Shown in pieces: positions 623 to 14,301 of a DNA stretch of 16,415 nt. The DNA lies in contig JAOADG010000040.1 in the NCBI GenBank assembly GCA_026417415.1, positions 1-16,415 of the forward strand, given 5' to 3'. Every line of letters starts with the position of its first letter. Within the stretch, counting starts at the first letter, position 1. The position numbers were made by a program, and so were the translations under genes. The notes under the pieces are model-generated. The model was not told where the DNA came from and searched no databases. It saw nothing but the letters and a program-made list of their open reading frames with translations. Source of the stretch: a bacterium (GTDB lineage: Bacteria; Electryoneota; JAOADG01).

Positions 623-1366
623 TCACGCCTTTGCTGGAAGAGGTTTTAGCACACCTACCCAAAACAACGGCTTGGACACCCAATAAACAACATCCAACTC
701 AAACCATTTATGAGCAAAATTAAAGCGATGGGGTGCTTTATGGTGATTATTCTGGAACAATTCACCAAAGGTAATCAAATCCAAAGGGAGCGTATTCCGT
801 GAGTGATCGCCCAAGTCACGGTAATTCACATAGCCAACTTTGTGTCCAAACCAATTGACAATAGCACCTTGCAAAGGACCGGTAACAAACTGAATGGGCA
901 ATAGCACAAACCAAATGGGCGAGGGGGCAAATTGAAGATACACCAAAAAGTAAATCCCCATCATAAGAAAGCGGGGAACCCAACGATTAGCAAAACGTTC
1001 AAACGATTCCCAATTTGGTATCTGTTGTTCAATTGCTGTATCTTGAATAGGGTACTCCCTCTTGATAATGGCTTGATAGACCTTATAGGTTCGCAACATC
1101 ATACGAAAGATGTTAGCGTGTTGCATTGGAGAATGAGGGTCATCGGGGGTATCGCTATACTTGTGATGTAAACGATGCAAGATGGCATAAGCCCGTGGAT
1201 TGAGGGCAGAAGGTCCTTGAATCAAATAGGTCAACACGCTGAACACTTTGAATGTTCGTTCCGACATGCAGTACATCTGATGCGATACATAACGATGTAG
1301 AAACAATGAATGAAAAAAAAGGGATAGAAACCAATGAAGGCCGAAAAAGGTTAAAATGACTTCCAT
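623..1366 (-). CDS. Membrane fatty acid desaturase (acyl-CoA/acyl-lipid desaturase family)
   Basis: This is a predicted integral-membrane di-iron desaturase that puts a double bond into a fatty acyl chain using O2 and reducing equivalents. The histidine boxes are clear: H24-RYVS-H29, H64-RL-H67-H68 and NNH208-H209-KAP-H213, with further ligand-like residues in GH (H175) and DHSRN (187-191). Hydrophobic segments lie at about 2-22, 41-55 and 134-165. At 247 residues it belongs to the short bacterial acyl-CoA desaturase class and looks full length. It is the last gene of the lipid operon and the only one separated from its predecessor, by a 17-bp gap. An AGGAG lies about 14 bases before the ATG, farther than usual. 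The family is certain; substrate and regiochemistry cannot be read from sequence. Confidence 0.92.
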   Translation of the reverse strand: MEVILTFFGLHWFLSLFFHSLFLHRYVSHQMYCMSERTFKVFSVLTYLIQGPSALNPRAYAILHRLHHKYSDTPDDPHSPMQHANIFRMMLRTYKVYQAIIKREYPIQDTAIEQQIPNWESFERFANRWVPRFLMMGIYFLVYLQFAPSPIWFVLLPIQFVTGPLQGAIVNWFGHKVGYVNYRDLGDHSRNTLPLDLITFGELFQNNHHKAPHRFNFAHKWFELDVVYWVSKPLFWVGVLKPLPAKA

Positions 1367-1383
1367 AATTGTATGTGATTCTC

Positions 1384-1857
1384 CTAAGTATTTTTCTTTG
1401 GCACTTGAAAAATTGATTGGATGGATTGCTCTCTATACTGAAAAATGTTTTCTAATTTGGGTTGTACCAAAAATTTACGAATGGCTCCTGTGAACCATCC
1501 AAAAGGCAAAGCATAATGCACAATATCTTCCATGAGTACCCCCTCTGGTGTCTCGTAAAACCGATGGAGATGGTGCCAATAGCGGTATGGTCCCACAATT
1601 TGAATGTCAGCAAATTGTTCCATTTCTATCACCTGTGTAATTTCGGAAACCCAAGTCAAGGGAATACCGAATATGGGCTTTACTTGATAGTGAATGTGCA
1701 TTCCATTCCGAATGGGGATGGATGGTTGATTGGTGATTTCAAATCCCATTTCAGGTGGAGTGATCTTTTTCAAATTGTATGGATTAGAAAAGAAGGACCA
1801 CACCTCACCCAAGGGTGCATTGATCCAAATGCGTTTATGTAAGACCGACAACGTCAT
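1384..1857 (-). CDS. SRPBCC-fold (START-like) ligand-binding protein
   Basis: This is a predicted soluble protein of 157 residues with the SRPBCC/polyketide-cyclase fold, whose deep hydrophobic cavity binds lipids or other apolar ligands. Family-like features are the N-terminal strand ending in NAPLGEVW (13-20), the SNPYNLKKITPP segment (24-35) typical of the cell-division-inhibitor-like SRPBCC subgroup, and GPYRYWHHLHRF (89-100). I chose the ATG at 1857 because it makes an ATGA overlap with the upstream methyltransferase stop and has AAGGTG about ten bases upstream. An upstream in-frame ATG at 1902 would lie inside the methyltransferase gene and lacks this support. It has no signal peptide, so it is probably cytoplasmic. 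Context suggests it binds or presents an acyl lipid to the neighbouring enzymes, which is inference. Confidence 0.8.
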   Translation of the reverse strand: MTLSVLHKRIWINAPLGEVWSFFSNPYNLKKITPPEMGFEITNQPSIPIRNGMHIHYQVKPIFGIPLTWVSEITQVIEMEQFADIQIVGPYRYWHHLHRFYETPEGVLMEDIVHYALPFGWFTGAIRKFLVQPKLENIFQYREQSIQSIFQVPKKNT

Positions 1858-2891
1858 TGACCGTGAGCACCTTTCTGAAAAAGCATATGGGATACATACC
1901 ATTCTTCTCCTTGGTGATACGAAAAAAGCTCTTCACACGCCAGAAAAAAGACCTTCCATCGGATAAACCAACGTTTGGCTTCGGTTTTGCCATAATGTTG
2001 TTCCAGCAAAGGAAGCAATTCTGCTCGGTGTGTTTCCATTTGTTGGATCCAATGGCGTGCAGAATAGGCATAATGTTTTCCATTCACACGCCAATGTTTA
2101 ATCAGTTCCAATTGGTCCGTAAAACGCTGCGGTAGCAGTTCAGAAGGCATCAGTCCACCACTAAAAAAGTATTTTCCCATCCAATCGTCTGGATGTTCGG
2201 TGTTAAACGGATAGGTGTACTCTCGGTGGCAAAAAATATGAAGAAAGAGTTTGCCATTGGGCTTTAACCAAGCCGCCACACGTCTCATTAACTCACGATA
2301 GTTGTGCATATGTTCAAACATTTCTACCGACACAATTCTATCAAAGGTTTTCTCCGTATGGAACTCATTCATATCCGCGGTAATGACCGTCACGTTTTTC
2401 AAACCACGATGATGAGCCAATTTTTCAATTTCAAGCCGTTGTGAAGTGGAATTAGAAACCGCAGTAATTGGGCTATTGGGATACTGTTTTGCCATCCATA
2501 AGGTCAGTGATCCCCAACCGCACCCCAACTCTAAAATCTCTTGACCATCTTGTAAATCGGCTCGTTCACAAGTGAGTTGGAGCATGGCCTCTTCTGCTTC
2601 TGCCAGTGTGCTTTCTGCCGATGGATAGTACAAAGAAGAATATTTTCGGTGCGGTCCCAACACCAATTGAAAAAATTCTGGTGGCAATTCGTAATGTTGT
2701 TCATTCGCTTTCTCGGGAACTTTAGCAATCGGCCCTTCATTTAAGCTTTGTAAAAAAGCATCCATTTGACCAGTTTGCTTTTCTTGTTCACACATTTTCA
2801 AACGGGTTTCCAATAGTTTACGAATTCCTAAACGGATAAGGAATGTGGGAATAACTCCCATTTCCATCCATGCGATAGCAGATCGGATCAT
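1854..2891 (-). CDS. CFA-synthase-family SAM methyltransferase, second copy (coclaurine-NMT-like)
   Basis: This is a 345-residue SAM-dependent methyltransferase of the COG2230 family, shorter at the N-terminus than true cyclopropane synthases. The SAM site is ELGCGWGS (121-128), and the family's HYELPPEFF appears at 66-74. MFEH (191-194) gives the Glu-His pair that is catalytic in plant coclaurine N-methyltransferase. Compared with the E. coli Cfa bicarbonate site, the cysteine is replaced by serine (YSS, S86), while Glu (E193), His (H218) and Tyr (Y274) remain. A strong AGGAGGT precedes the ATG, which overlaps the upstream cfa-like stop by 4 bases. The substrate is unknown: it may methylate the product of the adjacent enzyme, as FufM does when it makes dimethyl furan fatty acids, or it may act on another lipid. 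Confidence 0.88.
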   Translation of the reverse strand: MIRSAIAWMEMGVIPTFLIRLGIRKLLETRLKMCEQEKQTGQMDAFLQSLNEGPIAKVPEKANEQHYELPPEFFQLVLGPHRKYSSLYYPSAESTLAEAEEAMLQLTCERADLQDGQEILELGCGWGSLTLWMAKQYPNSPITAVSNSTSQRLEIEKLAHHRGLKNVTVITADMNEFHTEKTFDRIVSVEMFEHMHNYRELMRRVAAWLKPNGKLFLHIFCHREYTYPFNTEHPDDWMGKYFFSGGLMPSELLPQRFTDQLELIKHWRVNGKHYAYSARHWIQQMETHRAELLPLLEQHYGKTEAKRWFIRWKVFFLACEELFSYHQGEEWYVSHMLFQKGAHGQ

Positions 2892-4168
2892 ACGGAACCT
2901 CCTAAAATTGGGAGTGTATCATAATCGCTTTGCGATTTACGAAATACCAGTTGACTATTGCTGATAAAGTGTTCTGCAAATCCACCTTCGCAATAAGCGA
3001 AATAGTAATCCCACATTCGGATAAATGAATCTGAAAACCCTAACGCTTTGACTTTGTCTTCATTCTTATGAAAATTGTTTCGCCAGGCGTGTAGTGTTTT
3101 GGCGTAATGAATTCCAATATCTTCTAAATGAACCAGCCGCAAATCGGTCCTGTTTTGAATTTCCCTAAGCAAATGGGATATAGAGATTAAGCATGATCCG
3201 GGAAAGATGTAACGTTGAATAAAATCGGTGGATTTGCGATAACGTGGATACACTTGATCAGGGATGGTAATCGCTTGCAAAGCCATTACCCCTTTTGGTT
3301 TCAGTAAGCGGGAACATTGTTGGAGGTATTCACCAAGGTATTGGTGTCCCACGGCTTCAATCATTTCAATAGAAACCAGTTTATCAAATTTTCCTTCCAG
3401 TTGGCGGTAATCTTGTTTGAGTAAGGTAATTTTGTGGTCTAACCCTTTTTCACGGATCAATGCTTGAACATATGCATATTGCGCTTCAGAAATGGTGGTG
3501 GTGGTCACCCTACAGCTGTAATTTTCTGCCGCATAAACAGCAAAACTACCCCATCCACAGCCAATTTCCAGTACGTGATCATTCGGGGTAAGTTGCAATT
3601 TTTTGCACAAACGGTCATATTTTGCGATGGACGCTTCTTTTAAGGAAGTTGTTTCGTTTTCAAAAATACCGCAAGAATAGGTCATGGTTTCATCTAAAAA
3701 AAGTTGGTAAAAATCATTGCCTAAATCGTAATGTGCAAGGATATTCTGTTTACTTCCCTTAATGGTATTGCGGTTCCAAAGGTGATAGAGACGATGGAGA
3801 AAGTTGGTAACAAAAGCCAGTCCCCCTTCTAATCCTTCCAACACATCGCGGTTGCGAACCATTAACCGAATCGTTGCAACCAAATCCTCACTTTCCCAAT
3901 CCCCATCCATATAGGATTCGGCCGCTCCTATGCTCCCTCCAAAAATGATTTTTTCGTAGAAGCGAAGGGAGTGTAAACGAATTTTAGCAACGATTTCATC
4001 GCCAATTCCAAAACGGACGGTTTCAAATTCGTCCGTAATCCATAAACTTCCGTATCGTATTTTACTTAATTGTTGATGGAGCATGCGTCGTAGAAGTTTG
4101 GTTAATGTAAAACTACGCGTAGAGTTCTGTTTTCTGCTTTCTACCATTTGGGCAATATTTTGGCTCAT
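2888..4168 (-). CDS. cfa: Cyclopropane-fatty-acyl-phospholipid synthase family methyltransferase
   Basis: This is a full-length (426 aa) CFA-synthase-family enzyme that transfers a methyl or methylene group from SAM to the double bond of acyl chains in membrane phospholipids. The N-terminal lipid-binding region (about 35-120) includes SYMDGDWE (85-92). AHYDLGNDFY lies at 145-154, and the SAM motif EIGCGWGS is at 201-208. Aligned by motif to E. coli Cfa, C166 (YSCG), E261 (MIEAVG), I290 and Y345 are kept, but the bicarbonate-ligand histidine is Q288 (LQAIT). This Gln form is usual in COG2230 members next to COG2907/DUF1365 genes, so the product may be a methyl-branched chain rather than a cyclopropane. 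AAGGAA precedes the ATG, with a 4-base overlap with the DUF1365 gene. Confidence 0.9.
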   Translation of the reverse strand: MSQNIAQMVESRKQNSTRSFTLTKLLRRMLHQQLSKIRYGSLWITDEFETVRFGIGDEIVAKIRLHSLRFYEKIIFGGSIGAAESYMDGDWESEDLVATIRLMVRNRDVLEGLEGGLAFVTNFLHRLYHLWNRNTIKGSKQNILAHYDLGNDFYQLFLDETMTYSCGIFENETTSLKEASIAKYDRLCKKLQLTPNDHVLEIGCGWGSFAVYAAENYSCRVTTTTISEAQYAYVQALIREKGLDHKITLLKQDYRQLEGKFDKLVSIEMIEAVGHQYLGEYLQQCSRLLKPKGVMALQAITIPDQVYPRYRKSTDFIQRYIFPGSCLISISHLLREIQNRTDLRLVHLEDIGIHYAKTLHAWRNNFHKNEDKVKALGFSDSFIRMWDYYFAYCEGGFAEHFISNSQLVFRKSQSDYDTLPILGGSV

Positions 4169-4956
4169 AGGATATTTCCTTGTTTTTCAATAAGTGTTTT
4201 AGGATGTGGATAAAATGGCATTTTTTTCCACCATAAACGAAATGCTTCCCAATAAATGGCGCCAATTACCTTCAGGGTCATCAGTGGATAAGTTAGAAAT
4301 GACCATAGTAAGCGCTTTTGGGTGATAGGGTGGCGTTTAAGGTTCAAAAAAGCATTGAAACGCAACTGGTTAACTTCATAATTTGCCATATATACTTGAA
4401 TCGTTTCCGAAGGGGTGGTAAACCGCCAATCATAATCCTGTGTCATTGGCATAAACGGCGATACATGAAAAGATTTCGGCATTTTCCAACGTTTCCATTG
4501 ACGAATTCTATCGGCTTTTTGGATGGGTAGGATATAGGCATATTTTTCATTCCAAGGGGTATTGTTTACCTCTGCCAGAATGCATTCTACAGTTTGGTTG
4601 TCTTCGGCAAAACAATAATAGAACACCACGGGGTTAAAACAATAACCGAAGTACCTCAAATGGGCTAACATTCGGATTGCCCCTTGGGGTCGTTTTCCGG
4701 TGCGTTTTTCAACGGTATCACGGATGGCAACATCCAAAGGGAGTTTGGGATCGCCATGAAAATCGCTACGTCTGAACTCAATGAAGGCGCGGTGACGAAC
4801 GCTAAAAAAAAGCGAATCAGAGAAAAGTTGGTTCAATTCACTTAAATCTAAGTAAAGCATAAACAACGAATAGGTAAAGCGATGCTTTCGTGGGTACAGA
4901 CGGTTATGGGTAACTTGTCCAACGTAGATGGCACTCTGGACTTTGGTGTTTACCAT
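4165..4956 (-). CDS. DUF1365 family protein
   Basis: This 263-residue DUF1365 protein nearly always accompanies COG2907 oxidoreductases and CFA-family methyltransferases, and its biochemical role is not established. Family signatures include the N-terminal YVGQVTHNRLYPRKHRF (11-27), the LAHLRYFGYCFNPVVFYYCF segment (97-116), EVNNTPWNE (127-135), and a C-terminal region ending in hydrophobic helices that may touch the membrane. The start overlaps the oxidoreductase stop by 7 bases, with GGGGGT just upstream. The arrangement in one coupled operon suggests that it works in the same acyl-chain modification step, perhaps as an accessory or oxygen-handling factor; that role is inference. Confidence 0.9.
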   Translation of the reverse strand: MVNTKVQSAIYVGQVTHNRLYPRKHRFTYSLFMLYLDLSELNQLFSDSLFFSVRHRAFIEFRRSDFHGDPKLPLDVAIRDTVEKRTGKRPQGAIRMLAHLRYFGYCFNPVVFYYCFAEDNQTVECILAEVNNTPWNEKYAYILPIQKADRIRQWKRWKMPKSFHVSPFMPMTQDYDWRFTTPSETIQVYMANYEVNQLRFNAFLNLKRHPITQKRLLWSFLTYPLMTLKVIGAIYWEAFRLWWKKMPFYPHPKTLIEKQGNIL

Positions 4957-6221
4957 TCTACCCCCAACGCTTGAACAACATCCAAGGCACTATTTACCCC
5001 ATCTTCGTGAAACCCATAATACCAATAAGCCCCGCAAAAGTAGGTGTTGCGTACACCGTTAATTTCGGAGCGTCTGGATTGCGCCAGAAAAGATTGGACG
5101 GTATATTGAGGATGGTGGTACTCAAAGGTCTGTAGTATTTTTTGGGGATCAATTTTTTCTGGATAATTCAGTGTAATTTGAATGGGTGTACGGATGGGTA
5201 AGTTTTGCAAAATATTCATCTGATAGGTAAGAGTAGCGACCTTTTTCTTCTCTTTTGGTAAGTGACTATTCCAAGCCGCCCAAGCCAATTTCCGTTGTGG
5301 GAGTAAAGAAGTATCCGTATGTACATAAGCCATATTGGGTTGATAACGGATAGAAGATAAAATTTCTTTCTCTGCTAAAGAAGCATCAGCAAGCATTGAC
5401 AATGCTTGATCGGAATGAGTGGCAATGATGACTTGATCAAAATACACCACTTCACCGGAGTCCAAAATCAAGCGTACTCTGTTTTCTTCACGAAACACCT
5501 GTTTAACTTTTTGGTTCAGATAGGTTTTCGTGTTCATTTGACTTAATATGGCGTTGACATAGGTACGAGAGCCCTGGCGTATGGTCTTCCAAACAGGGCG
5601 ATTATTCACTTCTAACATCCTATGATGGTTAAAAAAATTGCAAAAGAATTTCGCTGGAAAGGTAAAAATGTCTTGTGGATCCGATGACCAAATGGCGGAT
5701 GCCATAGGAATGATATACCAATCGTAAAACGCTTTTCTGTAGCCACCATCTTTTAGGAATTCACCGACCGTGGTTGATGGATCCCCTTCTTGGGCAAAGG
5801 TTTTGGCATGTTGATGAAATCGTAAAATATCCCGTATCATCCCGTAAAATCGTGGCGAAAGAAGGTTAGAACGTTGAGCAAACAAAGTATTTAGGGATGT
5901 TCCGTTGTATTCTAACCCGGTGTTTTCATCTTTTACACTAAACGACATGGAAGAATCTTGATAAGAAACCTGAAGCATCTTTAGCAAACGCGTGAAATTA
6001 GGGTAAGTCACTTCATTGAATACAATAAAGCCGGTGTCCACAGGAACGGTTTTTCCTTCTAAATGGAGATCTATGGTATGGGTGTGGCCACCGAAGTAGT
6101 TTGCTTGTTCGTACAGGGTAATGTGGTGTTTGCGGCTGAGCAAATAGGCACAGACCAGTCCAGAAATCCCCGAACCAATAATTGCAATGTTTTTGCGTTC
6201 ACTCACTTGGTTTTGCTCCAT
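4950..6221 (-). CDS. FAD-dependent oxidoreductase, COG2907 (amine-oxidase-like)
   Basis: This is a predicted FAD/NAD-binding oxidoreductase of 423 residues. The N-terminal Rossmann motif GSGISG (16-21) is followed by the ribose-binding acid E38 and GGHTHT (44-49). The C-terminal FAD motif GAYWYYGFHEDG is the COG2907 hallmark. Related clusters in photosynthetic and marine proteobacteria use such an enzyme in modifying acyl chains of membrane lipids, and I expect a desaturation or oxidation of a methylated acyl chain here. The ATG at 6221 overlaps the lipocalin stop by 23 bases. A GTG at 6206, preceded by GGAG at a 9-base spacing and giving an 8-base overlap, is an equally good start. A longer frame up to 6284 adds residues with no family resemblance. 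Confidence 0.9.
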   Translation of the reverse strand: MEQNQVSERKNIAIIGSGISGLVCAYLLSRKHHITLYEQANYFGGHTHTIDLHLEGKTVPVDTGFIVFNEVTYPNFTRLLKMLQVSYQDSSMSFSVKDENTGLEYNGTSLNTLFAQRSNLLSPRFYGMIRDILRFHQHAKTFAQEGDPSTTVGEFLKDGGYRKAFYDWYIIPMASAIWSSDPQDIFTFPAKFFCNFFNHHRMLEVNNRPVWKTIRQGSRTYVNAILSQMNTKTYLNQKVKQVFREENRVRLILDSGEVVYFDQVIIATHSDQALSMLADASLAEKEILSSIRYQPNMAYVHTDTSLLPQRKLAWAAWNSHLPKEKKKVATLTYQMNILQNLPIRTPIQITLNYPEKIDPQKILQTFEYHHPQYTVQSFLAQSRRSEINGVRNTYFCGAYWYYGFHEDGVNSALDVVQALGVEW

Positions 6222-6750
6222 TCCAAATTTGAGGTACAGGCAGAACGCGCTTCGGGTCATACCCGTGCTTTCGCAATCCTTCAATGGCGTTGGTCACCAC
6301 AGAATCCTCAGGATTGGGAGTACGGCTCATTAGCCATACATACTTGCGGTTGGGAACACCAATCACCGTAAAAGTGTAGGCAGTATCCAATTCTATCACG
6401 TAGTAAGGTAGTTTGATGGGCCAGATAAATTGAACTCTCCACTCGCTATTGGTCTGACGATTGACCACAAACCCTCGTGCTTTGAACTGTTTGCGTTTTC
6501 CACGAACCGAATCTTGAAAAAAGGTATAGGATATTTCTATATCACCGTCACTTCGTAAACGGTAGCGTTCAATTCCATTCACAGCCCCTTTTTCTAAAAA
6601 GGTTGGGATGTTGGCGATAACGTACCAATCGCCCATAAAGCGCTCCAAATCTACCTTAGGAACTGGTTGTAAAGGTGTCAAAGGGACCTCCTCTTTGCAA
6701 GAAACAAGAACCATACAAACAAGGAAACCAAAAAAAGAATAACGTTTCAT
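6199..6750 (-). CDS. blc: Blc-like lipocalin lipoprotein
   Basis: This is a 183-residue bacterial lipocalin. The signal peptide ends in a lipobox (VSC, Cys18), so the mature protein is predicted to be lipid-anchored, probably at the outer membrane facing the periplasm. Lipocalin block 1 is MGDWYVIANIP (39-49), and the late conserved segment KYVWLMSRTP (136-145) closes the barrel before a C-terminal helix. E. coli Blc binds lysophospholipids and fatty acids, so in this operon it may carry modified or damaged acyl lipids between membranes (inference). The start makes a 4-base ATGA overlap with the DUF1295 gene, with AGGT a few bases upstream. Lipocalin genes recur in proteobacterial COG2907/CFA clusters. 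Confidence 0.92.
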   Translation of the reverse strand: MKRYSFFGFLVCMVLVSCKEEVPLTPLQPVPKVDLERFMGDWYVIANIPTFLEKGAVNGIERYRLRSDGDIEISYTFFQDSVRGKRKQFKARGFVVNRQTNSEWRVQFIWPIKLPYYVIELDTAYTFTVIGVPNRKYVWLMSRTPNPEDSVVTNAIEGLRKHGYDPKRVLPVPQIWNGAKPSE

Positions 6751-7520
6751 ATTGACCTATGTTTTGGAAACCAAGGAAAAAAGGCATTGGTAGTTTTACA
6801 ATAGTCAGCATACCCCTCTTTTTTCATCATAGATGTTTCAAGTAAAGGTACCCCGGAAAAGAACCGTAATAACACGGTTATAAGAATTGGTGACACCAAT
6901 GCCCAAACTTCACCGACACTCACAGCAAACAATCCAAACCCCCACCACAACACGGCTTCACCAAAATAATTGGGATGTCGTGTATAGCGCCATAACCCTG
7001 TTCGTAAAAAAGGCGGGCGGTCGGGTTGCTTCAGAAACCGAACCAGTTGACAATCCCCTATCAGTTCAAATCCAAAACCGATTGCCCATAAGAGAACAGC
7101 AAGTGAATCCCAAAGTTGCCAAGCGGTTGATGCAGCACTTATGGAAACGGCTAAGGGCCTAGCAACGATCCAAAGAATTGCCGCTTGTAAAAGGAACACA
7201 CGAAAATAACTTTGCCACCACCACGACGATCCACCTTCTTCACGCCATTTTCTGTATCGTGCGTCTTCAGGTTTTCCGCGATGTCGTAAATAGATATGGC
7301 CACTTAAGCGAACCGCCCAAATGGAAGTGAGTAGCAGTACCACCGTCCCTCGTAGCGTGGGTGGCTGCAATAGAAAATGAAGCAAGGCAAGCAACAGAAA
7401 CCCGATTCCCCAAGCAATATCTACAATGGAGACATCTTTCTTGAAAACACTCAGGAACCATATCCAAGTAAAGTAAACGACCACAATTGCTATTTCTAAA
7501 TACACGATAGAAGGCATCAT
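6747..7520 (-). CDS. DUF1295 integral membrane protein (steroid 5-alpha-reductase-like fold)
   Basis: This 257-residue polytopic membrane protein has several hydrophobic helices: about 6-24, 35-51, 58-71, 107-130, 138-157 and 188-220. The C-terminal signature GLWRYTRHPNYFGE (175-188) is shared by DUF1295, steroid 5-alpha-reductases and isoprenylcysteine methyltransferases, where this region binds the cofactor. KPEDARYRKWR (83-93) is also typical of DUF1295. The activity is unproven, but reduction or methylation of a lipid substrate is plausible. Tandem ATGs occur at 7520 and 7517. The first makes an ATGA overlap with the START-domain gene and is preferred. Its loss of translational coupling to that broken gene is discussed separately. 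Confidence 0.88.
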   Translation of the reverse strand: MMPSIVYLEIAIVVVYFTWIWFLSVFKKDVSIVDIAWGIGFLLLALLHFLLQPPTLRGTVVLLLTSIWAVRLSGHIYLRHRGKPEDARYRKWREEGGSSWWWQSYFRVFLLQAAILWIVARPLAVSISAASTAWQLWDSLAVLLWAIGFGFELIGDCQLVRFLKQPDRPPFLRTGLWRYTRHPNYFGEAVLWWGFGLFAVSVGEVWALVSPILITVLLRFFSGVPLLETSMMKKEGYADYCKTTNAFFPWFPKHRSI

Positions 7521-8200
7521 GATTTATCCCATCGTTTGGCTTCTTGAACCACATCTTCCACTTGATCCACGATCCCCGTTTTGTTGATGGTGTTCATCAA
7601 AAAAGCAGGTAAACTACCGGCGGGGTCCATAAAGATACGGTGGGTGAGTTGGGTCTTTCCGTTTGGCAAAGGTTTGCATTCCCAATATCCAGCCCCGTAC
7701 ACCATCCGAATAGAATTTTGAAAAATTTCTTTCGGAATGGAATAGTGTTGATCTTCATGTTGTGGAATCAGGACCCAATACGCAATGGTAGATTGTGGGT
7801 TTTCTTGGACTCGCAGAGAAAAAATCAAAGTCCGATCTTTCCAAATCGGTAACCACCAACGTTGGTAGCCAATCAGAATGCTGTCTTGTTGAGCAATGAC
7901 CGTGGATTTGAGCCGTTTCCCAGCACGCAGAAATTGTGAATAACGATTCACGGCTTGAAGCGTTTAAATGATTTGTTTAGGTGTGGCATCGGTCATTCCC
8001 GTAACTGAAAGTGCATAAACGCTGGCATGGGAAATTCGTTTCCGTGAGAGTGTCCATCCATTGGGGTGAGTGTGCACCATTTCCCAGCCATAGGAAGATT
8101 GTAGGTTTTTTAACAATAGCAAATTTTGCTCAACGGAAGCACTCAAGCCGTAGGAACTTAAAACGAGAATGAAAACCAAGGCAACCATCTTGCTAACCAT
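7517..8200 (-). pseudogene. START-domain lipid-binding protein interrupted by an in-frame TAA
   Basis: Both parts lie in one reading frame of 228 codons and together match a single exported START-domain protein. Codons 1-78 (8200-7967) hold a signal peptide (hydrophobic 5-17, possible cleavage after GLSA) and the start of the domain: YGWEMVHTHPNGWTLSRKR, then VTGMTDATPKQII. Codon 79 is TAA (7964-7966). The frame continues with TLQAVNRYSQFLRAGKR, exactly where family members read on into the NRY helix, and runs to a normal TGA at 7517. The downstream part could only restart at a GTG (7949-7951) that lacks a ribosome site. This may be a recent nonsense mutation, an assembly error or stop readthrough. 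An intact protein would be 227 residues. It overlaps the DUF2878 gene by 8 bases and DUF1295 by 4. Confidence 0.78.
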
Positions 8201-8759
8201 CTCTTTTGTGAATAGAACGATGGAAAAGAAAGAAGATACCAGCCCAACCCACGATAAGCAAAGGGATAGTAACCATCGGTTGTTGGATCACGACAGCCCC
8301 TAATCGTTCAGCACCCAGATAAGACAACGGTCCACCTATACCACCTAAACCTATCGCGATCAAAGGATTGCTTAACCAAGTACGAAACGAGTGGAAGATG
8401 GTCATAGAAAAACCAAGCCACAATGCACTTATCCACAACGGAGCAAGAAAAGGAAAATGTGAATAACCGCTTTGGTATTGGATTAGTCCTGTGAAAGAAA
8501 AAAAAGTGTCAAACAGGGTACCGAAAAAAACGGTTTTCAACAAGAATGGCCATTCCTTTTTTTGAATGGTTTTACTCAAGATGTGCCATAACAGCATGGC
8601 AATTGCGGCGATAGGGCCTACAAAAGCATATCCTTGGGCTGCACCAAGAACGGCAATCCACCACACCAAAAGATACCCCATTGCGTTCAACCATTGATCT
8701 ACCCGAGCAGAAGCATGGGTGGGTGAAGGGGTAACTGTGGATTTGGACCTATGGTTCAA
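8193..8759 (-). CDS. DUF2878 integral membrane protein
   Basis: This is the first gene of the lipid operon, encoding 188 residues with about six membrane helices (near 26-42, 46-61, 71-92, 102-122, 131-148 and 160-179). DUF2878 features are the GTLFDTFFSFTGL segment (80-92), APLWISALW (106-114), and GGPLSYLGAERLGA (142-155). Members are common in COG2907/DUF1365/CFA clusters, and no biochemical function is known to me. The start is TTG (8757-8759), supported by a full AAGGAGG seven to eight bases upstream. The next in-frame ATG, codon 27, would cut into the first helix. The stop lies 8 bases inside the START-domain gene. Confidence 0.86.
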   Translation of the reverse strand: MNHRSKSTVTPSPTHASARVDQWLNAMGYLLVWWIAVLGAAQGYAFVGPIAAIAMLLWHILSKTIQKKEWPFLLKTVFFGTLFDTFFSFTGLIQYQSGYSHFPFLAPLWISALWLGFSMTIFHSFRTWLSNPLIAIGLGGIGGPLSYLGAERLGAVVIQQPMVTIPLLIVGWAGIFFLFHRSIHKRDG

Positions 8760-8765
8760 AGAGAA

Positions 8766-8772
8766 CCTCCTT
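8766..8772 (-). promoter_or_regulatory. Shine-Dalgarno AAGGAGG fixing the TTG start of the DUF2878 gene
   Basis: On the minus strand, AAGGAGG is followed by TTCTCT and then TTG. It is a full match to the anti-Shine-Dalgarno core at normal spacing, which decides for the TTG start over the internal ATG. It also shows that the host uses canonical ribosome sites. Confidence 0.75.
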
Positions 8773-8785
8773 GGATAAAAGGGTA

Positions 8786-8791
8786 GTTATA
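8786..8791 (-). promoter_or_regulatory. Possible -10 element (TATAAC) of the lipid operon
   Basis: TATAAC on the minus strand lies 14 bases before the Shine-Dalgarno site, which would give a leader of roughly 20 bases. The hexamer 17 bases upstream (CCAACA) is a poor -35. Overlapping it, CATCC and CGTAT loosely recall the -35/-10 pair used by ChrR-type ECF sigma factors, but the spacing is too long. I regard this as a weak candidate. Confidence 0.25.
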
Positions 8792-9004
8792 CGAGAAGTT
8801 TGTACGTTTGTTGGATGTGTTAAAAAATTGTAAAATTTGAAAAATAGAGAATTGTTTTTATATTGATTTTGAAAAATAAACATTGTGTACATAATTACGA
8901 AATCGTTTCTTATCGTCAAAACAGCCCGATTCCGTTTGGTATAGGGTCTGCTAAGGGATAGTAATTATGTCTTTTATTTTTTCTACAGAACTTGAAAGGA
9001 TGAA

Positions 9005-10399
9005 ATGAAACGACAATCTGCTTTTAAAACCTTTTTATTTTTTACAGGGTTGTTGGTTATTACGGTGGTGATTGCTTATTATTTTTCTCACCGTTCTCCA
9101 CGAACCGCAACACCTACTCAATTGGAAACAAGCGAGGATACGGTTGCCGCCTCTCAGCCCAGCCCAACCGTCTCCAAACGACCCCAGAAAGGGCCTAAAT
9201 CCACTTCAAAACCGCTGCCGTATGTTGAAGGTAGAAAACTTCATCCGACCACACATGTTCACGATTATGCTATTCAATCGCCCCATGGGTTAATCACTTT
9301 GTTTCAAGCGTTGAAAAACTCTCAGAAAGATCAAAAAACGTATCGTATTGCGTATTATGGTGATTCCATGATTGAAGGCGATCTTATTACTCAAGATTTT
9401 CGTAAATCCTGGCAAGAACGGTTTGGAGGCAACGGTGTCGGATATGTACCTTTAGCAACAGCGGTGGAACTATTGCAATGGACCGTTCGTCTAAAAAACT
9501 CGGAGAATTGGCTTGTACAAACTGTCGTTCAAAAAAATGAGGATTATTCCAAATTAGGAATCGCAGGAATGATTGCACGACCCATCTCCAAAAAGCGGTC
9601 CAATGCAAATGCTTTCTATTGGGTGGAATGGTTTGGAAGCCAATCAAATCCATATTATCAGTCGTTTCAAGAGGTATCCCTTTGGTACGCTTCAACCGAA
9701 CCAGTAAAGATATCGTGTGGTTTTTCTAAAGATTCGTTAAACGAGGTAACGTTGTATTCAAAGGATATGCCATCTATACATACACTTGTAGCTCCAACGC
9801 CTCAAAATCGTTACTTTCGGTTGGAAACCAAAGAAAATCCGAATGTGGTATTTTATGGCGTCAGTTTGGAAAATGGCAAAGGGTGGTACATAGACAATTT
9901 TTCATTGCGTGGTGCAGGAGGTTGGGAACTGGCACATCTGCCCACGGAGCGTGTCCATCAGTTGTCCTATTTGCTTAACTACCAAGCGGTGTTGTTGGAA
10001 TTTGGTGCCAATGTCTTTAGCCCTCGCGGGGGTGACTACCATTGGTACTTTCGTAAATTGACGGCTGCGATTGATACGCTGAAGCGCTGTTTTCCACAGG
10101 CAACCATCATTCTCATTAGCAACCCCGATCGTTGCCATAAAACGCCAGGCGGTTATGAAGCGGATGAAAATGTCCCTTTGCTGATTCAAACTCAGCAACG
10201 ATGTGCGGAAAAGACCCAAATTGTGTTTTGGAATCTCTATGAAGCCATGGGGGGAAAAGGTTCATCCATTCAAATGCAAGAAAAACGCTGGATTGCTAAA
10301 GATCATGTCCACCTAAGTCCCCAAGGGGGTAAGTTCATTGCCAATCTGTTGTTAGAGGACTTAATGAAAGAATACGAAATTTGGTTGCAATATGAATAA
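9005..10399 (+). CDS. Membrane-anchored SGNH/GDSL-like protein (O-acyltransferase partner)
   Basis: This 464-residue protein has an N-terminal signal anchor (hydrophobic 8-27), a Pro/Ser/Thr-rich linker to about 75, and an extracytoplasmic SGNH-like domain. Block I is YYGDSMIEGD (117-126) with predicted nucleophile S121. The third-block Asn is in FGAN (N336), and the final dyad is DHVH (D433, H436). The family includes AlgJ/AlgX-type proteins that take acyl groups delivered across the membrane by an MBOAT protein and place them on polysaccharide hydroxyls. It may be an acetyltransferase or an esterase. GAAAGGA lies just before the ATG. It is the first gene of a four-gene operon and overlaps the next gene by 8 bases. 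Confidence 0.85.
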   Translation: MKRQSAFKTFLFFTGLLVITVVIAYYFSHRSPRTATPTQLETSEDTVAASQPSPTVSKRPQKGPKSTSKPLPYVEGRKLHPTTHVHDYAIQSPHGLITLFQALKNSQKDQKTYRIAYYGDSMIEGDLITQDFRKSWQERFGGNGVGYVPLATAVELLQWTVRLKNSENWLVQTVVQKNEDYSKLGIAGMIARPISKKRSNANAFYWVEWFGSQSNPYYQSFQEVSLWYASTEPVKISCGFSKDSLNEVTLYSKDMPSIHTLVAPTPQNRYFRLETKENPNVVFYGVSLENGKGWYIDNFSLRGAGGWELAHLPTERVHQLSYLLNYQAVLLEFGANVFSPRGGDYHWYFRKLTAAIDTLKRCFPQATIILISNPDRCHKTPGGYEADENVPLLIQTQQRCAEKTQIVFWNLYEAMGGKGSSIQMQEKRWIAKDHVHLSPQGGKFIANLLLEDLMKEYEIWLQYE

Positions 10400-11789
10400 A
10401 ATTTTTATCCTTGTGCTTAGTACTGCGGTTTTACTGGGTTGTATGCGGATGGTGAGGCAAAAGCCAGCAATCTCCGAACCCCCGTTGCCAACCGAAGAAG
10501 AGATTGTTGTGGATACCCTTTCTGCCCCCACTCCCTTAGAAGATACCTTGATGAACCTGTTTGTACGCCAATACCGACAGGAACTTCAGAAACAGATAGA
10601 TTCCATTAAAGAAAGGGTATCCTTATACTCCCATCTGAATTTTTCAGAAAATTCCATCCAATATAGCAACGTACTAATCCCGCTGTTTCAACGTTTCAAA
10701 CAACACAAATACAAACCCAGTCAACTGATAGAAATCATTCATATTGGTGATTCCCATATCCAAAGCCGTTTGATGACCCACCCCATTCGCGATGGTTTGC
10801 AAAAAATATATGGGAATGCTGGTCCCGGTTACTTTTTTGGTTTTGTGGTAGAAAAAAAGAAGCGAAAACGTTCCCGTTCAAAATCCAAAACGTTGCAGCC
10901 GCAGTTTCAAGCTCGTGCTCCCCTGACACAACAATTGGAGATTATCGGTCCCCCTGTTGGACTGGCGGGGTTTGCAGCACAACCGAAACGAAGCACATTT
11001 GATTTAGAAATTCCAGAAAGTTTACAACTCTTGGATAGCAGTACCACTATTCAATTGACCCTCTTTTGTGATGTAAATCGCTTTTCATTTCAAGCGATTT
11101 CTCTGTGGAACCATTCAACACCAAGCGTTCCCTTCACTACCACCATAGAACCGAATGCTTTATGGAAGGAGACCATTCTAACACCCAAATACAGGTTAGG
11201 GAGTCATCTTCGCATGGTGCGAAAAGATACCGCTCAGCCGATCCCTCGTTGGTATGGTTGGTCTTTTCAAACCGCAGATAGGGGGCTACTTTATCACACC
11301 ATCGGGATGAATGGTGCGTCGTATTTCACCTACAATCAAAATATCCTCTTTTGGGAACAAATCCAATCGTTTCAACCACAACTCATCATCATTTCCTTAG
11401 GGACCAACGATGGGTATGGATCACCATTGCAACTGGATAAATGGATTAATGAAGTCAATCAAATGGTTTCTTCCTTACGACGAATACACCCGCAAGCCCA
11501 AATTCTCTTGACTTCGCCTGCCGATGCTGCACGGGGTAAAGGTAAAAGAAAAAAAGGGATTGAACAGTATGCTGCTATGAGCCACGAATTAAAACGGTAT
11601 TGCAATGACAACCGACTTGCTTTTTGGGACTTTTATCGCGTGATGGGGGGGAGCGGGAGTATCAAACAATGGGTGCAATTGGGTTTAGCCAAACCCGACT
11701 ATGTCCATTTTACTCCCGAAGGGTATCAACTGCAAGCGAACCTCTTTCTGATGGCGTTTTTTCAAGCCATGGTGGAGCATCTTGAGTGA
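10392..11789 (+). CDS. SGNH/GDSL-like lipoprotein (O-acyltransferase partner)
   Basis: This 465-residue exported protein has a lipobox (LLGC, Cys17), so it is a predicted lipoprotein. It has a short coiled region (about 50-75) and an SGNH-like domain with all core residues: HIGDSHIQSR (117-126, S121), block III SLGTND (N339, D340) and the final PDYVH (D436, H439). It is paralogous in layout to the preceding protein, with the nucleophile at the same residue number, but it carries the more canonical GTND block. A KKKRKRSRSKSK stretch (about 154-165) is unusually basic and may contact an anionic polymer. The start overlaps the upstream stop by 8 bases and has no clear ribosome site, so it probably depends on coupling. 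It is likely the acyl transferase or esterase partner of the MBOAT protein. Confidence 0.87.
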   Translation: MNKIFILVLSTAVLLGCMRMVRQKPAISEPPLPTEEEIVVDTLSAPTPLEDTLMNLFVRQYRQELQKQIDSIKERVSLYSHLNFSENSIQYSNVLIPLFQRFKQHKYKPSQLIEIIHIGDSHIQSRLMTHPIRDGLQKIYGNAGPGYFFGFVVEKKKRKRSRSKSKTLQPQFQARAPLTQQLEIIGPPVGLAGFAAQPKRSTFDLEIPESLQLLDSSTTIQLTLFCDVNRFSFQAISLWNHSTPSVPFTTTIEPNALWKETILTPKYRLGSHLRMVRKDTAQPIPRWYGWSFQTADRGLLYHTIGMNGASYFTYNQNILFWEQIQSFQPQLIIISLGTNDGYGSPLQLDKWINEVNQMVSSLRRIHPQAQILLTSPADAARGKGKRKKGIEQYAAMSHELKRYCNDNRLAFWDFYRVMGGSGSIKQWVQLGLAKPDYVHFTPEGYQLQANLFLMAFFQAMVEHLE

Positions 11790-11795
11790 GTCAAC

Positions 11796-13238
11796 ATGTT
11801 TCTTTTTTCTCTTGAGTTTATCACATTTTTTAGTTTACTACTGCTTTTTTTGGTGATTGCAGCACCTTATCCAACCATAAAAAAGTGGGGGCTGCTACTT
11901 TTCTCTTTAATCTTTTTCATAGCACTCAATTCCAAAGGGATTGTGGCTTTGGTAGGATATGTGGGAGTGGATTATATTCTGAATCAATGGGTTTACCGTA
12001 CCTCGTCTAAGAGAAAAAAAACCGTCCTCTATTTTTTCTGTATTTTTTGGGAACTTGCGTTTCTCTTGACTTTCAAACTGGTGCAACAGCAGAATTGGAC
12101 TATTGCTTCCCAATGGGAGCAGATTCAGTCGGGTCTGATTTGGGTTGGGATATCCTTTTTTGTTTTTAAGTCCGTTACCCTTTCTACTGCGATTTATCAG
12201 GGTAGTATCACCCGTTTGAGATTTGTGGACTATGCCAATTATTTGTTGTTTTTTCCGCAACTGATGGCTGGTCCCATTGCACCTGCTACGCAGTTGTACC
12301 CGCAGTTAGAGCATTTTGATCATTCTCTTCCCGTTCCCTATGGCAAAATTACGTTGCTCATTGGTCTGGGATTAGTAAAAAAGATTGTGGTAGCGGATTA
12401 CTTAGGATACAATTATGTTCAACGGGTGTTTGAATATCCGTCGCGGTTTACGGGAGTGGAGGTGTTGGTTGGTATCTATGCTTATGCGTTGCAAATATTT
12501 TCAGATTTTTCTTCTTATACTGACTTGGCAATAGCAATGGGGTTGTTGTTAGGAATACAAACACCAAACAATTTTGACAGGCCTTATTGGGCGCATTCAA
12601 TCACCGATTTTTGGAGAAGGTGGCACATCACGCTTTCGCAATGGTTGTGGCAATATTTGTTTAATCCCATCAACAATCGCATTGCACGCTGGGTAACACG
12701 GCGCAAAGAACTTCCAAGCCGAACGTTAGGGTTAATCACCTATCCTTTTTCCATTGGGATTACCATGGGAATTGCAGGTCTGTGGCACGGTTTCAAAGGG
12801 ACATATCTGGTGTGGGGGTTGTGGTTTGCTTTGGGGTTAATTCTGGAAAAAATCTTTCGCTTTGAAAAATGGTCCCAAAAGCGTGCGTATCGCAGATGGA
12901 TTGCTCGTCTCCTTGTGTTCCATTGGGTTTGTGTGGGTTGGATATTTTTTCGCTCTGAAAATTTTGAAACGGTAGGATGGATGTTTTATCAACTCATCTT
13001 TTCCCAATTTTTATCCTTGCTTGTCCCATTTTGTGTGGCTTATTGGAAGATCGTTTTATTGATGGTTTTAGGATTTGGGATTCATTTCTTGTTTTCCAAT
13101 GAAAGGGTGGAACGGTGGGGAGCGAAAATGGAACGATGGGGTTGGTTGGGGTTATTTCTTTTTTATGCTCTAATTATAGTTTTGGTGTTATCGGTTCAAA
13201 CTGCAGATGTAGAGCCGTTTATTTATTTACAATATTAA
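11796..13238 (+). CDS. MBOAT family O-acyltransferase (AlgI-like)
   Basis: This 480-residue polytopic membrane protein of the AlgI/PatA/DltB branch passes an acyl (usually acetyl) group from a cytoplasmic donor to an extracytoplasmic acceptor. Key motifs are FPQLMAGPIAPA (153-164), DFWRRWHITLS (271-281, H277) and GLWHG with the invariant MBOAT histidine H331, followed by VWGLWFALG. The length and the roughly ten or more hydrophobic segments match the family. It starts six bases after the SGNH lipoprotein gene. With two exported SGNH-like partners it forms a complete O-acylation module, but no glycan-synthesis genes are in view, so the acceptor (exopolysaccharide, LPS or other glycan) is unknown. 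It is followed 19 bases later by mazG. Confidence 0.93.
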   Translation: MFLFSLEFITFFSLLLLFLVIAAPYPTIKKWGLLLFSLIFFIALNSKGIVALVGYVGVDYILNQWVYRTSSKRKKTVLYFFCIFWELAFLLTFKLVQQQNWTIASQWEQIQSGLIWVGISFFVFKSVTLSTAIYQGSITRLRFVDYANYLLFFPQLMAGPIAPATQLYPQLEHFDHSLPVPYGKITLLIGLGLVKKIVVADYLGYNYVQRVFEYPSRFTGVEVLVGIYAYALQIFSDFSSYTDLAIAMGLLLGIQTPNNFDRPYWAHSITDFWRRWHITLSQWLWQYLFNPINNRIARWVTRRKELPSRTLGLITYPFSIGITMGIAGLWHGFKGTYLVWGLWFALGLILEKIFRFEKWSQKRAYRRWIARLLVFHWVCVGWIFFRSENFETVGWMFYQLIFSQFLSLLVPFCVAYWKIVLLMVLGFGIHFLFSNERVERWGAKMERWGWLGLFLFYALIIVLVLSVQTADVEPFIYLQY

Positions 13239-13257: not shown

Positions 13258-14301
13258 TTGTCAGAACAAAAACCATCACGTTGGGATAAAGATCAGCGAT
13301 TGGGAATCCCACCTTTGGGAGTGGGTGAGGCGGTAGAGCGTCTTGCTGCAGTGATGGCGCGATTGCGCGCGCAGGACGGCTGTCCCTGGGATCGATCAAT
13401 GGACCACCAATCGCTTCGGATGTATTTATTGGAAGAAACCTATGAAGTGCTTAAAGCATTGGATGATGGGGATATCCAGGAATTGAAAACAGAGTTGGGT
13501 GATCTGTTGTTGCAGGTGGTATTTCATGCGCGAATTGCGGAAGAGCGTGGGGAGTTTACTTTAACGGATGTTGCCAATGGGATTGTTGAAAAACTGTTAT
13601 CTAGACATCCCCATGTCTTTGGTGATGCGGTGGCTCACACACCTTCCCAAGGGATTGCCAATTGGGAAGCCACCAAACGCAAAGAAGGAAAGCGATTGTT
13701 GGAGGGAGTCCCTCGTGAGTTACCGGCATTGTTGCGCGCGTACCGCGTGCAAGAAAAAGCCGCCAACGTGGGTTTTGATTGGGAGTTGCCCGATGATGCT
13801 TACCAAAAGTTGAAAGAAGAGTTAGAAGAGTTGTACCAAGCGTCGCTGGTTGCATTCCCCCATTCTACGAAACCCTCCCTTAGCCGAACAGATGATAAGA
13901 AGGATAATGAAGGGGATAACCAGAGTGGTCCCCCTCTTGACCCCGCAAGTAAGCCACCAGAAGGTGAAGATAAATTTTTCTACCCCGGTGGTACCTCAGA
14001 AAATCCCTCTGAAGGTTCAACCACCCACCCCCCTTCCAGCGGTGGAGCAAAGGGGGGTGTGGATCCAAAAACAAACTGGGAAGAAGAGTTAGGCGATGTT
14101 CTTTTCTCTATCGTAAACCTTGCTCGCAAACACGGGGTTGACCCCGAGTCCGCCCTACGTAAAACCATTGATAAATTCCACACCCGCTTTGCCTACATTG
14201 AAGACCGTTTGCGCGAGCAAGGCAAATCGCTCTACCAAGCCACCCTCGAGGAGATGGATCAGTTGTGGGAAGAAGGAAAAATTTTATTCAAATTTAAGTA
14301 A
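13258..14301 (+). CDS. mazG: Nucleoside triphosphate pyrophosphohydrolase MazG with an inserted low-complexity segment
   Basis: This cytoplasmic MazG hydrolyses (d)NTPs to NMP and pyrophosphate. It has two MazG domains. The first has GCPWD (41-45) and the metal-binding set LLEETYEV (57-64) with E79 and D82. The second has YRVQEKAANVGFDW (172-185) and WEEELGDVLFSIVNLAR (274-290), followed by KFHTRFAYIE. Typical MazG has about 260-270 residues; this one has 347. The excess is a Pro/Gly/Ser/Asp/Lys-rich stretch at about 198-273 between two helices of the second domain. It keeps frame, so the enzyme may still work. The start is TTG with GAGGGG eight bases upstream. It is the last gene of the O-acylation operon, probably by co-transcription rather than shared function. 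Confidence 0.92.
   Translation: MSEQKPSRWDKDQRLGIPPLGVGEAVERLAAVMARLRAQDGCPWDRSMDHQSLRMYLLEETYEVLKALDDGDIQELKTELGDLLLQVVFHARIAEERGEFTLTDVANGIVEKLLSRHPHVFGDAVAHTPSQGIANWEATKRKEGKRLLEGVPRELPALLRAYRVQEKAANVGFDWELPDDAYQKLKEELEELYQASLVAFPHSTKPSLSRTDDKKDNEGDNQSGPPLDPASKPPEGEDKFFYPGGTSENPSEGSTTHPPSSGGAKGGVDPKTNWEEELGDVLFSIVNLARKHGVDPESALRKTIDKFHTRFAYIEDRLREQGKSLYQATLEEMDQLWEEGKILFKFK
13849..14076 (+). repeat. In-frame low-complexity insertion in mazG containing a G/C-run palindrome
   Basis: These 228 bp encode residues absent from ordinary MazG and contain CACCCCCCTT (14026-14035) and its exact complement AAGGGGGGTG (14050-14059). CCA and TGG pair inside, around a short loop. The C6/G6 arms resemble those of the 76-bp elements at the left of the window, and an upstream segment (ACCCC after GTCCCCCTCTTG) loosely recalls their leading half. 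Common origin is possible but unproven, because length and interior differ. Confidence 0.5.

Follow-up and report, generated by a model that had tools for sequence, protein, structure and literature searches.

The present study concerns contig JAOADG010000040.1 (GenBank assembly GCA_026417415.1) of a bacterium of the lineage Electryoneota, an entire contig of 16,415 bases that was analysed over its full length and is called the window hereafter. On its minus strand, running from 8759 to 623, lies an operon of ten genes in the order DUF2878-START-DUF1295-lipocalin-COG2907-DUF1365-CFA1-CFA2-SRPBCC-desaturase, where CFA1 and CFA2 denote the first and the second CFA-family methyltransferase. Judged by homology and gene order, this operon probably specifies a self-contained pathway to furan fatty acids that acts on membrane phospholipid chains. 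Furan fatty acids, which are found in plants, fish and microbes, are thought to be membrane lipids with an antioxidant function, and their synthesis has been worked out in two alphaproteobacteria only. The host genome (G000) comprises 2.2 Mb in 40 contigs and was scored 100% complete; it was compared with a sister genome (G001) and a further genome (G018) of the same phylum, and with G045, a genome of another phylum.

In the described pathway (Lemke et al., 2020, PMC7380195) UfaM methylates cis-vaccenate on phospholipids. The methyl diene is then produced by UfaD, a flavin adenine dinucleotide (FAD)/nicotinamide adenine dinucleotide (NAD)-binding protein resembling phytoene desaturases; UfaO, which contains DUF1365, introduces oxygen derived from O2, and a second methyl group is supplied by FufM. 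RPA2571-2569 of R. palustris stand in the order ufaD-ufaO-ufaM, and RPA0923, the identity of which is not stated there, was co-deleted with fufM (PMC7380195). The three ufaD, ufaO and ufaM genes are also consecutive in Halomonas, whose ufaM gave an 11-methyl product in E. coli; further literature bears on these clusters (PMC12089945, PMC10940516, PMC10012899). In UniProt, UfaM is Q3J4I7, UfaD Q3IYV7, UfaO Q3IYV8 and FufM Q6NBA4 (accessions as given in PMC10940516). The five genes of the window that are relevant here are the following.

4950..6221, minus strand: UfaD-like FAD desaturase (COG2907), with Amino_oxidase and NAD_binding_8 matches
4165..4956, minus strand: UfaO-like DUF1365 oxygenase (PF07103, E 1.6e-80; beta-barrel model)
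2888..4168, minus strand: UfaM-like fatty acyl methyltransferase, CFA1 (CMAS, E 1.7e-85; own clade, 100/99)
1854..2891, minus strand: FufM-like methyltransferase, CFA2, of the coclaurine N-methyltransferase type (clade with plant N-methyltransferases, 100/100)
623..1366, minus strand: di-iron acyl desaturase (PF00487, E 8.6e-14; boxes HRYVSH, HRLHH and QNNHH)

The operon enzymes were set against the verified UfaM, UfaD, UfaO and FufM by published descriptions and gene order. Since UfaD and UfaO were described by family (PMC7380195), the COG2907-type FAD protein and the DUF1365 protein of the operon can be read as UfaD- and UfaO-type, so that the operon, with CFA1 and CFA2 taken as UfaM- and FufM-like, reads UfaD-UfaO-UfaM-FufM uninterrupted. 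The COG2907 protein is 35-52% identical to proteins at the same position in other loci, and LkcE is its nearest solved structure (E 3e-40). For DUF1365 a sequence search found no solved relatives. Its model (pLDDT 82.6) consists of a beta-barrel plus a long C-terminal helix, with the fatty-acid-binding-like Ycf58, nitrobindin and OlmO as best structural matches (best Foldseek E 3.5e-3, Z-scores of 6 to 7, root-mean-square deviation > 4 A), which are too weak for the assignment of a cofactor and lie below the level that would indicate kinship; the modelled barrel is compatible with the holding of an acyl chain. H17 is the sole invariant histidine across 26 DUF1365 sequences, hence no obvious metal triad is present in the UfaO-like protein.

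In a tree of operon CFA1 and CFA2 proteins with solved reference proteins, CFA1 from 25 loci formed one clade (100/99), and CFA2 grouped with coclaurine and pavine N-methyltransferases (100/100), separate from Cfa and CFA1. CFA1 is, as is characteristic of UfaM, a CFA-family methylase adjoining genes of the ufaD and ufaO type, and is 40% identical to its Ensifer counterpart, which occupies the ufaM position there. With E. coli Cfa (6bqc) it shares the sequence family and the core binding S-adenosylmethionine (SAM), but it has Ala and Gln in place of the active-site residues His240 and His266 (H240A and H266Q; residue numbers of the E. coli enzyme). All CFA1 copies that cover the active site have Ala at the first position and Gln at the second (Lys in G001), whereas the Cfa references retain both histidines, and the cyclopropane synthase motifs MFEH and LLH are replaced in CFA1 by MIEA and LQ. 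These exchanges bear on a reading in which the two methyltransferases make only cyclopropane or methyl-branched chains, with COG2907 and DUF1365 serving some other membrane redox function and no furan being formed. Both methyltransferases match PF02353 CMAS and have a Cfa model as their top NCBIfam model, and overexpression of UfaM in E. coli was accompanied by cyclic fatty acids too; however, with the histidine pair replaced, scores short of the NCBIfam Cfa equivalog cut-off (280 of 400 bits for CFA1, 149 of 400 bits for CFA2) and UfaD- and UfaO-family genes directly coupled, we consider this reading quite improbable.

Among solved structures, CFA2 comes closest to coclaurine N-methyltransferase 6gkv (E 2.9e-74, versus 3.6e-28 for E. 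coli Cfa 6bqc). It belongs to the same sequence family as the coclaurine N-methyltransferases (6gkv, 5kn4), whose plant members act on alkaloid nitrogen, whereas CFA2 stands in the context of membrane lipid. A plant homologue of FufM, AT4G33110, is 37.9% identical to FufM (PMC10940516), and the CFA2 gene of Chlamydomonas is annotated as coclaurine N-methyltransferase (PMC4067076). The position of CFA2 in the coclaurine N-methyltransferase clade and the kinship of AT4G33110 to FufM support its putative assignment as FufM-like. Alternatively, the pathway could end at the mono-methyl furan and CFA2 could methylate something else, for instance nitrogen on a lipid or amine like its plant relatives. 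This is unlikely in our estimation: the best solved relatives of CFA2 are indeed alkaloid N-methyltransferases, and the FEH motif is retained in several, but the plant homologue of FufM belongs to the same broad kind, and CFA2 is kept in the clusters of the furan fatty acid type in Xanthomonadales, Acinetobacter, Cupriavidus, Shinella, the host phylum and G045. The CFA1 active site, together with a CFA2 in the coclaurine N-methyltransferase clade, offers a sequence rule for finding other producers.

The desaturase carries the PF00487 domain with all three histidine boxes and is the single PF00487 match in the host genome; it scores 85 of 400 bits against the NCBIfam DesA equivalog cut-off. A search of the host genome for PF03405 returned no member, and the sole match there to the FabA/FabZ family is a bifunctional LpxC-FabZ fusion, with no FabA. 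The possibility that the desaturase is UfaD was considered and rejected, as UfaD is described as a flavoprotein (PMC7380195). A desaturase lies within the cluster in most Xanthomonadales loci, where it directly precedes COG2907, as well as in Acinetobacter and in three genomes of the host phylum. In the desaturase tree, which was thinly sampled and from which a motif filter had removed all further desaturases of the phylum, a 98/99 branch separated the proteobacterial operon copies from those of the phylum, and the latter stood with DesA-like proteins and a protein of Leptospira; the Leptospira relative is located outside any ufa cluster. The presence of two desaturase subfamilies in operons suggests that the desaturase was recruited twice, independently, and thus that the desaturation step belongs to the pathway. 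We infer that the enzyme supplies the double bond that is methylated by the UfaM-like enzyme; such an enzyme is absent from the pathway as published, and a role in providing the substrate for that pathway is more likely. It might instead be a general membrane desaturase of the host whose place in the operon does not reflect a dedicated step, which we hold to be somewhat unlikely. The genome has no second PF00487 desaturase, and in G001 a second copy, 54% identical to that of the window, lies outside the cluster, yet two subfamilies occur in the ufa clusters of three lineages, and the two roles, substrate supply and service to the membrane as a whole, are not mutually exclusive.

In the proposed pathway the di-iron desaturase would act first, on a saturated chain, and create a cis double bond, presumably using O2. 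The UfaM-like enzyme, with SAM, would convert this into a methyl-branched trans-alkene, from which the UfaD-like flavoprotein would form a conjugated methyl diene; the UfaO-like DUF1365 protein would then close the furan with O2-derived oxygen, and the FufM-like enzyme would add the second ring methyl. The four steps that follow the desaturation have been demonstrated with the homologous enzymes of R. sphaeroides and R. palustris (PMC7380195); for the host they are predicted from homology and gene order. The original prediction was that the set could carry methylation, desaturation, O2 insertion, second methylation and lipid transport in one transcript, and the contiguity of the UfaM, UfaD, UfaO and FufM families supports this, except that the di-iron desaturase falls outside the published pathway. 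One operon with relatives of all known enzymes and a desaturase supplying the substrate would offer a ready-made cassette for production in a heterologous host.

Several points weigh against a complete furan pathway in the host. The furan product is a prediction from the genes, and the sequence of a CFA-family enzyme does not reveal its product; in plants, cyclopropanes are made by synthases similar to CFA1. R. sphaeroides makes do without an extra desaturase in its furan pathway, and the host encodes an NMO/FabK-like protein, so that another, anaerobic source of double bonds is possible. Furthermore, one operon gene, START, is broken, as described below.

The cluster is a variant of the known pathway, all-in-one, with its own desaturase and outside the proteobacteria. 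It shares the same four families with R. sphaeroides and R. palustris and has the ufaD-ufaO-ufaM order of RPA2571-2569 (PMC7380195), whereas fufM lies elsewhere in the R. palustris genome and the FufM-like gene of the host is inside the operon, which moreover adds the desaturase, DUF1295, DUF2878, lipocalin, SRPBCC and START and has no ChrR. In contrast to the proteobacterial ufa loci, the host belongs to a separate phylum of its own. A gene-neighbourhood survey, suggested with the original prediction as a check, returned the cluster in Xanthomonadales, Acinetobacter, Cupriavidus and two relatives, and owing to this recurrence the gene set is far beyond chance. The Xanthomonadales and Acinetobacter clusters (L005-L020, L034) have desaturase, COG2907, DUF1365, CFA1, DUF1295 and CFA2 in common with the window, mostly also lipocalin, and in Xanthomonadales DUF2878; they differ in having the other desaturase subfamily and DUF1295 directly before CFA2, an arrangement found in Shinella and Cupriavidus as well. 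Of 39 genomes of the host phylum, three have DUF1365, and these are also precisely the ones with full-length DUF1295 (E below 1e-60). In G001 COG2907-DUF1365-CFA1-CFA2-desaturase form one block and DUF2878-START-DUF1295-lipocalin a second block of opposite orientation, and in G018 the block from COG2907 to the desaturase and DUF2878-START-DUF1295 are on separate contigs. In G045 CFA2-COG2907 precede a single frame of 649 amino acids (L027:7798-9747) that joins DUF1365 and CFA1, a UfaO-UfaM fusion. The three UfaM copies of the phylum form one clade with a proteobacterial metagenome-assembled genome (MAG) as sister, and COG2907 plus DUF1365 did not resolve this part of the tree. On an Ensifer plasmid ECF-ChrR adjoins FAD-DUF1365-CFA, followed by SDR, MFS and DUF3833. 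The last three may correspond to the rest of the R. sphaeroides operon, RSP1087-1089. The singlet-oxygen-induced genes of Chlamydomonas include CFA1, a coclaurine-N-methyltransferase-like CFA2, DUF1365, DUF1295 and DUF2177 (PMC4067076, tables 5 and 9), a set of the same families as the bacterial ufa clusters.

Two plasmid loci may be recorded beside this survey. A Shinella plasmid (L033) carries ECF-ChrR-DUF1295-CFA2 and then a MASE7-like membrane protein, DUF1365 and CFA1 being close by, and on a Polaromonas plasmid (L073:343-1812) an acyl-CoA desaturase, an acyl carrier protein and a CFA-family gene are consecutive, a different pairing of desaturase and methyltransferase.

The light and singlet-oxygen setting typical of the cluster is missing from the host. 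In Rhodanobacter an ECF sigma factor, ChrR and photolyase lie 3-6 kb upstream of the cluster, in Acinetobacter a photolyase is near it, and in G001 a CarH/LitR-like MerR protein with B12-binding domains lies directly upstream of the ufaD homologue (L025:26-919). In the host genome searches for a CarH/LitR-like regulator, for the ChrR cupin (PF12973) and for the photolyase FAD domain gave no match, the last being present in both G001 and G018; the lack of ECF/ChrR, LitR and photolyase that had been noted for the neighbourhood of the operon thus extends, for ChrR, CarH-like protein and photolyase, to the entire host genome.

The other features of the operon and its upstream region are as follows.

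8760..9004, no strand: divergent intergenic region, presumed promoter, with one weak sigma-70-like match (8919-8891, minus strand)
8193..8759, minus strand: DUF2878 membrane protein, first operon gene (PF11086, E 2.3e-33), with a TTG start preceded by a AAGGAGGT ribosome site
7517..8200, minus strand: START-like lipid-binding protein with signal peptide and one in-frame stop (33% identity in alignment to the intact G001 protein)
7964..7966 (read 7966-7964), minus strand: in-frame TAA at START codon 79, from reading frame and alignment
6747..7520, minus strand: DUF1295 membrane protein, steroid 5-alpha-reductase-like (PF06966, E 1.1e-66), neighbour of the FufM-like gene in proteobacteria
6199..6750, minus strand: Blc-type lipocalin lipoprotein (PF08212, E 4.6e-36; NCBIfam Blc, 2e-26)
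1384..1857, minus strand: SRPBCC/polyketide-cyclase-like lipid-binding protein (weak Polyketide_cyc match, PF03364, E 8e-4, below cut-off)

Eight of the nine junctions overlap, in order by 8, 4, 4, 23, 7, 4, 4 and 4 bases, and the ninth is a gap of 17 bases; the overlap of 23 bases and the last of 4 depend on internal ATG starts at 6221 and 1857. Such overlap is not special on this contig, where an unrelated gene pair overlaps too (10392-10399). Matches in the promoter scan of the upstream region were near chance level. Pfam matches above cut-off were obtained for 8 of the 10 genes (DUF2878, DUF1295, Lipocalin_2, Amino_oxidase/NAD_binding_8, DUF1365, CMAS twice and FA_desaturase), whereas a Pfam search of the window proteins gave no match for START, which was recognised by alignment to the G001 protein. 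The ten-gene coupled operon originally proposed is upheld as to its single strand, the presence of all ten genes and the overlapping junctions, but START had been counted as intact. Its TAA sits within the region that aligns to the intact G001 homologue, the G018 copy being open as well, so that either one of the ten genes is broken or the assembly is in error; START is probably non-functional in the host. The stop codon, the lack of CarH-like protein, ChrR and photolyase and the small genome (2.2 Mb versus 3.6 and 4.6 Mb) might be taken to indicate an operon decaying in the host, with its light and singlet-oxygen regulators gone. We regard such decay as very improbable, in that the remaining nine genes have uninterrupted frames, are coupled and keep conserved motifs, and the single stop may be an assembly error; moreover, no START homologue was detected in the clusters of proteobacteria, which implies that START is dispensable there.

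DUF2878 also leads the second block in G001 and G018, and an SRPBCC homologue (36%) adjoins COG2907 in a Myxococcales contig (L011). Lipocalin, SRPBCC, START, DUF1295 and DUF2878 are probably accessory, with a part in lipid handling or a side step as yet unknown. DUF1295 is likely to be auxiliary to the pathway and is indicated as a candidate for a missing part of it; RPA0923 may be a DUF1295 protein. We think it rather unlikely that DUF1295 and the lipid-binding proteins perform an undescribed step, such as modifying it further or exporting it to the outer membrane, on a furan lipid built from a saturated chain via the dedicated desaturase, with an end product unlike the 9M5 and 9D5 furan fatty acids.

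Elsewhere in the window, a direct repeat of 89 bases near the contig end (99-187 and 323-411, 93% identical), each copy with complementary arms CCCCCCTTTTCGA and TCGAAAAGGGGGG, is possibly a repetitive extragenic palindromic (REP)-like element. On the plus strand (9005-13238) two GDSL-like proteins and an MBOAT acyltransferase lie in tandem and resemble a polysaccharide O-acetylation set, and a MazG protein is found at 13258-14301, the second half of which is split by an insert rich in Pro, Ser and Gly.

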